From: Planctomycetota bacterium | Lineage (GTDB): Bacteria; Planctomycetota; UBA8742; UBA2392 | DNA: 64,000 bases | Direction: 5' to 3' | NCBI GenBank assembly: GCA_020849795.1 | Contig: JADZFR010000036.1 | Coordinates: 1-64,000 of the forward strand | Part shown: positions 3,713-53,414 of the stretch, in pieces | How positions within the stretch are numbered: the stretch's first letter is position 1 | How the letters are laid out: each line of letters opens with the position of its first letter | The notes under the pieces: generated by a model | Seen by the model: only the letters and a program-made list of their open reading frames with translations | The model's database searches: none | What the model was told of the DNA's origin: nothing | Program-made: the position numbers and the translations under genes

Positions 3713-4696
3713 CTACTTCATGCGGGCGATGGCTGACTTCGCCGCCTTCACGTACCGATCGTCTTCCGGGCCTTCTTTCACCAATGCCTCGTACTCGGCC
3801 TTGGCGGTTTCGTTGTCGCCGGACTTCTGGGCAATTGCAGCCGCCCAGTACTTGATCTCTTTGAGCCTTTCATGCTTCGGGAAGGCCTCTACCAGCGCCT
3901 TGAGTTCTTTGCGGGCGCCTTCGTGGTCTTCGTTCAGGAACGACTTAATCCGGGCATTCAGGATGCTCGGCTCAAGCGCGCGCTCGTCCTTGGCGCTAAC
4001 CAGGCCGGGCAGCACAGCGTCGTAGACCTTGGCGATTTTGCCGCCAACGTCCTTCTGGTTTTCCTGCGTCATCGTGGCCAGCAAGCCGTCAGCGTACTTG
4101 AGTTGGATGTCTACCCAGCGCTTGTCGTCCGGCTTGACCTTTTCAGCCAGCTTCTCATACAGCGGCAACGCCTTGTCCGCCTTGCCCAGCGCGGCGTAGG
4201 CCTCTGCCAGCTTCATGGCTGCGTCGATGTTTTCGGGGTCTTTTTCGTAGGCAGCTTCGTACTTGGGCAGGTTCTCGAGGCCGTCGGCCACATCGCCGAA
4301 CCACTTGATGGCATCCTTCGGCGTCTGGAACGGTGCGCCCACCTGGCGCATCACTTCGGCGCCCTCGGCGTCGGTGATGATGAAGGTTGGGAACGCCTTT
4401 ACCACGTACTTCTTGAGAATGTCGGGTGCCTTGTCGTCGTACAGCATCACGGGCACGAAACTCTTGCCGATGACTTTTGCGAGTTCTTCGTCTGGCCATA
4501 CGTCACGGGCCAGCGCTTTGCAGGGGCCTCACCACTCGGCGGTGAATTCAATGAACAGGCGCTTGTTGTCGGCCTTTGCCGTTGTCAGCGCCTTGGCGTA
4601 GTCGTCGGTCCACTGCACGCCTTTGGTTTCTTCGGCAAACGCCGGAGACGCCATCAGCGCCAGGGCCAACGCGCCCAGGGTCAACATGGTCTTCAT
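3713..4696 (-). CDS. Selenoprotein: exported thioredoxin-fold protein with Sec in a W-U-G-P-C active site
   Basis: Read through one in-frame TGA (4529-4531), this is a continuous 327-residue protein. It has a signal peptide at 1-21 (MKTMLTLGALALALMASPAFA), a thioredoxin_7-like domain (about 25-150) and a TPR-like helical tail (about 160-327). The TGA codes for residue 56 in EFTAEW-U-GPCKAL, precisely the nucleophilic first cysteine of a WCGPC motif. Both flanks are in one frame and no other stop occurs. A hairpin at 4492-4513 fits a bacterial SECIS. The start at 4696 follows a GGAG site. Conventional calling would give only a fragment starting near 4456. A damaged gene or sequencing error is possible but unlikely given the residue hit. 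It is expected to act as a periplasmic oxidoreductase. Confidence 0.88.
4492..4513 (-). promoter_or_regulatory. Candidate bacterial SECIS element for the TGA at 4529-4531
   Basis: On the minus strand CUGGCC (4513-4508) pairs with GGCCAG (4497-4492) in a perfect 6-bp stem around a 10-nt loop, CGUGACGUAU. The stem begins 16 nt after the UGA and the loop occupies nt 22-31, inside the 16-37 nt window known for bacterial SECIS elements. The second loop base is G, as required by the published consensus. Folding was judged by eye. Confidence 0.7.
4529..4531 (-). other. In-frame UGA read as selenocysteine (residue 56)
   Basis: TCA on the plus strand is TGA in the frame of the thioredoxin-fold gene. 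It is flanked by TGG (Trp) before and GGC-CCC-TGC (Gly-Pro-Cys) after, so it replaces the attacking cysteine of the CxxC site. Confidence 0.85.
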
Positions 4697-4902
4697 GCAA
4701 TCTCCAAGGTTAGGAAATGAGTCCAGACTCTCTATTAAGGAGGCAACAGGCCGCAACGGAAGATGATTTCCGGTTTCTGGGCGCCGGCGTGCAGCAACCC
4801 CACGCCATTCGGCACTTTTTCCCAATCCGCGATGGCAATCGGCGTTTGCTTAAGCGAACATGTTGCGCATTCTGCTTTCGCACATCGGCAAATGGGGGCT
4901 CC

Positions 4903-30833: not shown

Positions 30834-32027
30834 ATGACAGCGACCGCCGCACCGCTATTGAGCAGTGAAGAAATTCAGCGCTATGCGCGCCATTTGATCC
30901 TGCCTGAATTCGGCAAAGCCGGCCAGGAAAAGCTCAAGCGTTCCAGCGTGCTGTGCGTGGGCGCGGGCGGGCTGGGCTCGCCGATGGCCATGTACCTGGC
31001 GGCGGCGGGCGTGGGCCGCATCGGCATCGTCGACTTTGACGTGGTCGATGTCAGCAACCTGCAGCGCCAGATCATCCACGGGCAGAGCACCGTCGGCGTG
31101 CGCAAGGTGGTCAGCGCCAAGAACCGCATCAAAGACCTGAACCCGAACGTGGACGTCGTGATCCATGAAGTCGCGCTGTCCAGCACCAACGCCCGCCAGA
31201 TCGTGCGCGACTACGACGTAGTCGCCGACGGCACCGACAACTTTCCGACGCGCTACCTGGTCAATGACGCGTGCGTGCTTGAGGGCAAGCCCAACAGCTA
31301 CGCCAGCATCTTCCGCTTTGACGGGCAGGCCACCGTGTTCGGCCTGCCGGGCGGGCCGTGCTACCGCTGCCTGTACCCCGATCCGCCGCCGCCGGGCATG
31401 GTGCCAAGTTGTGCGGAGGGCGGCGTGCTGGGCGTGCTGCCGGGAATCGTCGGATGCATACAGGCGTTGGAGACTTTGAAGGTGCTCACGGGCATTGGAG
31501 AGCCACTGAAGGGGCGCCTGATGGTGTTCGACGCCCTGGGCATGAAGTTCCGGGAACTGAAGATCCGCAAAGACCCGGGCTGCCCGATTTGCGGCGACAA
31601 GCGCACGATTCATGAACTGATTGATTACCACCAGTTCTGCGGCGTGCCTAACGACGAGGAAGCCGCCAAGGCCCGTGAAGCCCAGGAGAAATCAGCCGTG
31701 CGACCCGACGAGATTACACCCGAGCAGCTCAAGGCCCGCATCGACAAAGGCGACAAACCGTTTCTTGTCGATGTTCGCAACGCCAACGAGCTGGACATCT
31801 GCAAGCTGCCCTACGACGCATGGATCCCGTTGCCCGAGTTCGGCCAGCGCTGGGAAGAACTCGCCGGCCAGAAGAACACCGAGCTGGTGATCTATTGCCG
31901 CAGCGGCGCGCGCAGCGGCCAGGTGACCCAGTTTCTCAAGCAGCAGGGCTTCACCAACGTCAAGAACATGATCGGCGGCATGCTGCGCTGGAGCGACGAA
32001 GTCGACCCCACCAGCGCCAAGTACTAA
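30834..32027 (+). CDS. ThiF/MoeB-type adenylyltransferase fused to a rhodanese domain
   Basis: This 397-residue protein has an E1-like adenylating domain with the nucleotide loop CVGAGGLGSP near 41-50. Zinc-binding cysteine pairs CYRC and CPIC are present. A C-terminal rhodanese domain (about 290-397) has its catalytic cysteine at about residue 355 in VIYCRSGARSGQ. The layout is that of MoeB-R/MoeZ proteins, which activate small ubiquitin-like sulfur carriers (ThiS, MoaD, CysO) and transfer sulfur. The rhodanese here has a normal Cys, unlike the one at 52724-53047. I start at 30834; an alternative ATG lies at 30816. Its stop overlaps that of the converging exported-protein gene. Confidence 0.92.
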   Translation: MTATAAPLLSSEEIQRYARHLILPEFGKAGQEKLKRSSVLCVGAGGLGSPMAMYLAAAGVGRIGIVDFDVVDVSNLQRQIIHGQSTVGVRKVVSAKNRIKDLNPNVDVVIHEVALSSTNARQIVRDYDVVADGTDNFPTRYLVNDACVLEGKPNSYASIFRFDGQATVFGLPGGPCYRCLYPDPPPPGMVPSCAEGGVLGVLPGIVGCIQALETLKVLTGIGEPLKGRLMVFDALGMKFRELKIRKDPGCPICGDKRTIHELIDYHQFCGVPNDEEAAKAREAQEKSAVRPDEITPEQLKARIDKGDKPFLVDVRNANELDICKLPYDAWIPLPEFGQRWEELAGQKNTELVIYCRSGARSGQVTQFLKQQGFTNVKNMIGGMLRWSDEVDPTSAKY

Positions 32028-32989: not shown

Positions 32990-33075
32990 GTTCACCCCAT
33001 TGTTCAACGACGTGAGAACGCCGCGGTTGGCCCGAACCATCCCTTGACCTGCGATGCCGTGCGGTTACTGTGGTT

Positions 33076-33153
33076 GTGGGCGCGGCGAGAGGCCGTGAAC
33101 CTGGTCAGGTCCGAAAGGAAGCAGCCATAGCGAACCCCCTCGGGTGCGCCCAC
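33076..33153 (+). ncRNA. ffs: Small signal recognition particle RNA (4.5S type)
   Basis: A 78-nt segment begins GUGGGCGC and ends GCGCCCAC, which pair as the closing stem. It contains the universal domain IV: CUGGUCAGGUCC, a GAAA tetraloop, then GGAAGCAGCC, with the conserved asymmetric and symmetric internal loops. This RNA binds Ffh and directs membrane proteins to the translocon. It is followed at once by an intrinsic terminator. No signal for a longer, Alu-containing SRP RNA was seen. Confidence 0.95.
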
Positions 33154-33162
33154 CTAACTCAA

Positions 33163-52723: not shown

Positions 52724-53047
52724 TCAACTACCGCCAACGGGCAAGCCGGCTTCAAACCATTCTGCTATGCCGCCGCGATAGTCCCACAGGTTGGTGTATC
52801 CAAGTGCATCTGCCGCACGGGCCGCCTTGGTCGAGGCGTTTCACGAGTATCCGGATCAGTAGAAGACCAGCATGGCGCCCTTGTCGCCGGGCAGGTTTTC
52901 GGGCCGCACTTCGCTGACGGGCAGCAGTTTCGCGCCCTTGATGTGGCGCGCACCGTAGCTGCCGGGCCCGCGGTTGTCGTACAGGGCAAAGACCCGGCCG
53001 CTGTCGAGGGCATCTTTCAGGTCCTGCATTTCGATGTTTTTGACCAT
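52724..53047 (-). CDS. Selenoprotein: single-domain rhodanese with two selenocysteines (U-x4-U)
   Basis: Read through two in-frame TGAs (52856-52858 and 52841-52843), this is a 107-residue rhodanese-like protein. It starts MVKNIEMQDL after a GGAGG site and ends with the canonical GYTNLWDYRGGIAEWFEAGLP. The TGAs code for residues 64 and 69 in LVFY-U-SGYS-U-NAST, exactly the C-x4-C active-site loop of rhodanese sulfurtransferases. Hairpins suited to SECIS function follow each. A caller that stops at the first TGA would give a catalytically dead fragment. It would transfer sulfane sulfur or selenium, or reduce peroxides, on a selenol; the substrate is unknown. It is divergent from a ferredoxin gene. 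Confidence 0.86.
52804..52818 (-). promoter_or_regulatory. Candidate SECIS for the second TGA of the rhodanese gene
   Basis: GUGC (52818-52815) pairs with GCAC (52807-52804) around a 7-nt loop GGCAGAU. Counted from UGA 52841-52843, the loop occupies nt 27-33, inside the 16-37 window, and both first loop bases are G. The stem is only 4 bp. Confidence 0.5.
52823..52838 (-). promoter_or_regulatory. Candidate SECIS for the first TGA of the rhodanese gene
   Basis: CGCCU (52838-52834) pairs with AGGCG (52827-52823) around a 6-nt loop CGACCA. Counted from UGA 52856-52858, the loop occupies nt 23-28, and the second loop base is G, matching the bacterial SECIS pattern. Confidence 0.6.
52841..52843 (-). 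other. In-frame UGA read as selenocysteine (rhodanese residue 69)
   Basis: TGA between TCG (Ser) and AAC (Asn); it is the second cysteine of the C-x4-C rhodanese loop. Confidence 0.8.
52856..52858 (-). other. In-frame UGA read as selenocysteine (rhodanese residue 64, catalytic position)
   Basis: TGA directly after TTC-TAC (Phe-Tyr), where rhodaneses have the catalytic cysteine of (V)FYC. Confidence 0.83.
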
Positions 53048-53183: not shown

Positions 53184-53414
53184 ATGCCCGACCCGAACGA
53201 AAAGTGGGAAGACAACGTGCCCGGCGCGTGGTACGTGGACAAAAGCTGCATTTTCTGCGGCTTGTGCCCGCAGCTTGCGCCCAACAACTTCCGCGAGTCG
53301 GAAGACGGCACCCACGACCTGGTCTACAAGCAGCCGGACAGCGGCGAAGAAAAGGCCCAGTGCGAAGACGCCGCCGCCCAGTGCCCGGTGCAGGCCATCG
53401 GCGCCGACGGATAG
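53184..53414 (+). CDS. Small single-cluster ferredoxin ([4Fe-4S], Fer4_13-like)
   Basis: This 76-residue ferredoxin has the cluster ligands CIFCGLC (Cys22, 25, 28) and a distant CP (Cys67) in AAQCPVQAIG, a single [4Fe-4S]-type arrangement. Cys60 is spare. It resembles the small ferredoxins of Thermotoga and Gram-positive bacteria. It is divergent from the Sec-rhodanese gene across a 136-bp region holding an AT-rich patch (GATAATATACC near 53150). This shared regulatory region and the redox themes suggest joint use. TrmB follows 77 bp later. Confidence 0.9.
   Translation: MPDPNEKWEDNVPGAWYVDKSCIFCGLCPQLAPNNFRESEDGTHDLVYKQPDSGEEKAQCEDAAAQCPVQAIGADG

Follow-up and report, generated by a model that had tools for sequence, protein, structure and literature searches.

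A free-standing rhodanese with two predicted selenocysteines in its active-site loop, conserved in a family of environmental Planctomycetota

Introduction

The sections on rhodaneses in a 2026 review (PMC13188914) list five forms that contain selenocysteine (Sec, U), with the motifs UxxS, UxxG, CxU, UxxG and UxxxxU for forms 1 to 5. The last of these, with two Sec residues, belongs to TsoB, a fusion of rhodanese and DsbD from Haft and Tolstoy 2025 (PMC13188914). Here we analyze a small rhodanese gene on the minus strand (52724..53047) of a 64,000-nucleotide stretch from an uncultured Planctomycetota bacterium (positions 1 to 64,000 of contig JADZFR010000036.1, assembly GCA_020849795.1; hereafter the window), in which in-frame TGA codons occupy both active-site positions that carry cysteine (Cys) in C-x4-C rhodaneses. 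Comparison with related sequences indicates that both TGAs are very probably decoded as Sec; the protein would then be a double-selenium enzyme. It is a free-standing relative of the known double-Sec domain, and the U-x4-U rhodanese itself is already in print within TsoB. A free-standing U-x4-U rhodanese was not found in the literature searched, which included PMC12013277 and did not cover most subscription papers. An earlier note on this DNA had stressed that proteins with more than one Sec are rare in bacteria; this is less exceptional than was claimed, the sections of the review cited above describing several such families, TsoB among them (PMC13188914).

If our reading is correct, an environmental Planctomycetota family has retained throughout a two-selenium active site of very small size, with a single domain of 107 residues and a single hairpin, and public databases shorten the protein at its first TGA. 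The small gene lets one ask whether a single bacterial selenocysteine insertion sequence (SECIS) drives two Sec codons that lie 15 nt apart, and also what a diselenide would do in a fold that is usually taken to carry sulfur. A natural record of Cys-to-Sec replacement would further be available in the series C-x4-C, C-x4-U and U-x4-U.

Results

Translation of the frame from its ATG at 53047 to 52724, with TGA read as U, gave a protein of 107 residues with U64 and U69 in the loop ...LVFY-U-SGYS-U-NASTKAARAADALGYTNLWDYRGGIAEWFEAGLPVGGS, followed by a closing TGA at codon 108 (52726-52724). The first in-frame TGA codon (TGA1, 52856..52858, minus strand) corresponds to the rhodanese nucleophile, and the second (TGA2, 52841..52843, minus strand) to residue six of the active-site loop. 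The protein matched the Pfam family Rhodanese (PF00581) with 49 bits against a gathering cut-off of 22.2, and a rhodanese fold was predicted with a predicted local distance difference test score (pLDDT) of 95.4. Homology extended on both sides of the TGAs, each of which aligned with a conserved Cys, so that the placement of in-frame TGAs at both cysteines of the C-x4-C loop, proposed in the earlier note, was borne out. Six rhodanese matches were found in the window's genome, and internal stops (the two TGAs) occurred only in the U-x4-U gene.

We searched 60 genomes, from the same genome and genus through the family to more distant lineages, and found a match in 40. The family sample consisted of 16 genomes (G000 to G015, including the window's own, G000) from six genera, which are relatives and not independent draws. 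In 16 of 16, the best match had exactly two in-frame TGAs, each time as FY-U-x4-U, and no further in-frame stop was present within the matched range in any of the 16. Because both TGAs are common to 16 separately assembled genomes, a sequencing error is an improbable explanation. A search of 392 Planctomycetota genomes with a profile of the family gave a match at E <= 1e-8 in 280, and among the matches listed, those with two TGAs were confined to the same 16 genomes. One-TGA matches were present in G371, G097, G151 and G288:C333.

Both loop columns were invariant in an alignment of 21 rows (A1, U shown as C), five of which were C-x4-C or C-x4-U relatives. In a profile search for relatives, 7996 candidates were scored and 2256 proteins passed; Cys stood at both loop positions in 120 of the best 120 of these 2256 proteins, a figure that is biased upward because the rows of the search profile all bear Cys there. 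The alignment to Cys-containing rhodaneses thus placed Cys at both TGA positions, and together with the pattern in the 16 genomes this profile-biased count agrees with the earlier argument that a chance pair of TGAs at these two codons is unlikely; chance was rejected on the 16/16 pattern. In codons 17-39, which follow both TGAs, the median nonsynonymous divergence (dN) was 0.193 and the median synonymous divergence (dS) 0.881 (120 pairs, 12 of them saturated). Purifying selection acts on the codons downstream of the TGAs and, together with the 16/16 conservation, led us to reject a pseudogene. The orthologues close with TGA (8), TAG (7) or TAA (1); since 8 of 16 end in TGA, this codon still acts as a stop in the family.

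The Sec machinery was searched in the window's genome, and all four components looked for were present, each over its cut-off, as expected if the TGAs are read as Sec. The gene for tRNA-Sec (69.2 bits; anticodon tca by ARAGORN) adjoins that for SelA (469.1 bits), SelB scored 333.5 against a cut-off of 242.25, and SelD scored 399.5 and itself has one in-frame TGA. The SelD gene lies at G000:C3:96412-97332 (L060), and its TGA falls within HGAGUGCKLS. Rfam gave two extra matches in this genome, with 47.4 and 47 bits, at the threshold for tRNA-Sec.

Among the NCBIfam models, the best match of the window protein was TsoB (NF045694), with 46.7 bits over profile positions 49-157 of 572. The two share a rhodanese domain, U-x4-U and two Sec residues, which are predicted in the window protein and given for TsoB in the review (PMC13188914); unlike TsoB, the window protein is without the DsbD and thioredoxin parts, and we did not file it as TsoB, its score being far below the full-length cut-off of 805 bits. 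None of 17 genomes searched for TsoB, 11 of them from the window's family, had a match over that cut-off. Assignment to rhodanese_LYCAU (NF041203), a rhodanese-related (seleno)protein that shares the rhodanese domain but has the motif CxU and one Sec in the review's listing (PMC13188914), was likewise rejected (35.8 bits, cut-off 115), as was assignment to PQQ_CXXCW (TIGR03865; 33.4 bits, cut-off 128.05). Single-domain C-x4-C rhodaneses, including BH2092 of solved structure (3nhv/3o3w), have Cys in both places and no Sec, and the BH2092 loop reads YCWGPAC at the aligned positions.

Also related to the window gene are C-x4-U rhodaneses (L089-L091 of family f69, L050, and a paralogue in G013), in which a TGA stands at the second loop position and is followed by a hairpin. 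They differ in having Cys (TGC) at the first position, hence a single TGA. In f69, the hairpin lies about 3 nt further downstream than in the U-x4-U genes; the rhodaneses of this family (L089-L091 and L051) have an N-terminal signal-like stretch and their frame continues into a glutathione-peroxidase-like stretch, for which a profile match was obtained in L051. The record of L050 is labelled Deltaproteobacteria. The G013 paralogue (L024; G013:C82:25456-25773, minus strand) adjoins the U-x4-U gene in tandem and reads FYCTEPTU.

The published model of the bacterial SECIS, as given in the relevant section of the review, has a spacing of 16-37 nt, a loop of 3-9 nt with G in the first two places, a stem of 4-16 bp and a minimum free energy (MFE) <= -7.5 (PMC13188914). 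RNAalifold analysis of the 16 orthologues gave one hairpin, with columns 35-39 of alignment A3 (TGA1 = column 1) pairing with columns 45-49 (5 bp, loop CGTGC, -7.67 kcal/mol). In the window, this predicted SECIS (columns 35-49) lies at 52810..52824 on the minus strand. Its loop starts 21 nt past TGA2 and 36 nt past TGA1; both distances are inside 16-37 nt, and so one hairpin satisfies the spacing for both codons. The consensus hairpin agrees with the model for both TGAs, but the window's own copy departs from it by a mismatch and favours other folds. Paired cells made up 97.5% of the hairpin and 10-58.8% when its 3' side was slid. The Ala codons in the hairpin were GCG GCC in 16/16 and the following codon was CGT in 15/16 (AGT in one), whereas outside it (codons -12 to 41 minus 11-15) Arg was CGC in 21 of 25 cases and Ala used all four codons. 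When the G013 paralogue and L050 were added (18 rows), the pair 36-48 was G-C in 14 rows, C-G in 2, G-U in 1 and unpaired in 1; this pair changed on both sides in 2/18 rows, with a covariation score reached by 0 of 500 shuffles. The L024 hairpin occupies the same columns as the U-x4-U hairpin, with one pair swapped.

The hairpin was rejected as stand-alone proof, because G+C-rich C-x4-C homologues give chance hairpins of similar score (5-20 in 15 rows, vs 12-18 in the 16 orthologues). The weight of the SECIS case is in its fixed place, loop and codons. A separate upstream SECIS for TGA1 (A3 columns 21-25 with 32-36) was 87.5% paired, no better than shuffles; one pair was broken in 8/16 rows, and only 2/16 had G in the first two positions of the loop. 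The C-x4-U relatives, too, have hairpins where the predicted SECIS lies, and a single SECIS is therefore probably used for both TGA codons.

Discussion

As a whole, we read the locus as a U-x4-U rhodanese that is decoded with one SECIS and would probably serve as a selenium redox relay, not simply as a sulfurtransferase, and assign this reading a probability of about 0.65. TGA1 and then TGA2 would be read by SelB and Sec-tRNA(Sec), the hairpin loop lying 36 and 21 nt downstream, respectively. Sulfane sulfur would be taken up by Sec64, or this residue would attack a peroxide or an oxidised thiol. The intermediate would then be resolved by Sec69 of the same loop through an intraloop diselenide, with release of the reduced product, and re-reduction of the enzyme would fall to the neighbouring ferredoxin or to a thioredoxin-like protein. 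A diselenide redox cycle is suggested by the predicted Sec pair in the loop. The ferredoxin, a divergently transcribed single-cluster 4Fe-4S protein (53184..53414, plus strand), is the neighbour in 16/16 loci and a possible electron donor to the rhodanese. A redox role is somewhat favoured over transfer on account of this neighbour and of relatives fused to peroxidase-like or, in TsoB, DsbD-like domains.

Several points weigh against this reading, which was built from sequence and prediction. The ferredoxin may be a mere neighbour. Within the 16 orthologues alone, a both-sided pair change was absent, and over the 18 rows shuffles matched the counts of both-side changes in 119 of 500 cases and the pair types in 108 of 500. 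In the window copy, pair 36-48 is a G.A mismatch and 4 of the 5 pairs are formed; its free RNA prefers other hairpins, and its folding z-scores were unremarkable (1.20, -1.25 and 0.77). Chance hairpins occurred in C-x4-C relatives, with all five pairs in 1/15 (L099). The single hairpin may also be too distant for TGA1, since its spacing of 36 nt comes close to the upper bound of 37 nt.

Less probably, the protein might be a diselenide reductase, with a SECIS that would derive from a C-x4-U ancestor, a loop alternating between diselenol and intraloop diselenide, and electrons from ferredoxin or a Sec-thioredoxin. It is less likely, in our view, that the enzyme carries out conventional sulfur/selenium transfer, for example in selenium supply to SelD. 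On that account both TGAs are again Sec, Sec64 alone carries the per-chalcogenide, and Sec69 tunes reactivity. However, the second position is Cys in the 120 best of 2256 relatives (a profile-biased count) and Sec in all C-x4-U genes read; its being Cys or Sec throughout suggests a direct role rather than mere tuning. The fusions of the relatives, moreover, are to redox domains.

Returning to the decoding, termination at the TGAs would leave a 63-residue product and a remainder that is a relic or only occasionally read, and this we consider very improbable. Its support comes from database entries, where 19 of 26 matches are shortened versions of 61-64 residues that end at FY before the first TGA; these short records are gene calls, however, not observed proteins, and the low dN/dS after the TGAs and the identical pattern in 16/16 genomes speak against it. 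One of the 19, P0003, may represent the window's own product. Reassignment of TGA, or its reading as another amino acid without Sec, has nothing but the in-frame TGAs themselves in its favour and is extremely improbable, general reassignment having been rejected on the 8/16 orthologues that end in TGA and on a coding-potential scan that only four TGAs of the window passed (the rhodanese was not scorable), and the Sec genes being present in the window's genome.

Given double-Sec decoding with one hairpin, we infer that the second Sec may have arisen first and that the first was added later under an existing hairpin, because the hairpin of the C-x4-U relatives is positioned to suit the second codon. 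This order is put forward as an inference because the 43-row tree is poorly resolved, its bootstrap being not settled and long branches meeting; U-x4-U formed one weak group (56/48), and C-x4-U needed three changes.

Of the 16 stretches upstream of the rhodanese, six (L109, L111, L112, L114, L117 and L118) contain an imperfect inverted repeat resembling TAGTAGAC...GTCCACTAT; it is possibly an operator common to rhodanese and ferredoxin. The earlier note's count of two selenoproteins in 64 kb holds as a prediction, the second being a thioredoxin-like frame with a TGA at 4531 (minus strand, frame about 4343-4702), which has U-x2-C (EFTAEWUGPCK) and a likely signal peptide. It ranked best of the four TGA candidates in the coding-potential scan, which could not score the rhodanese, the two TGAs of the latter being too close together. 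Similar frames were seen in several family genomes, and a GGCC-CGTG stretch follows TGA 4531 at a spacing resembling that of the rhodanese hairpin. Elsewhere in the genome, a DsbD-like protein (G000:C1:45642-46919, L076) has an in-frame TGA in its thioredoxin part (FTGYNUKNCR); after this TGA comes a hairpin whose 6-bp stem varies on both sides between species. The window also contains another rhodanese domain (31716-31997, plus strand), within a stop-free frame of 446 residues, and a bacterial-type small signal recognition particle RNA (33069-33159, plus strand; 62.9 bits).
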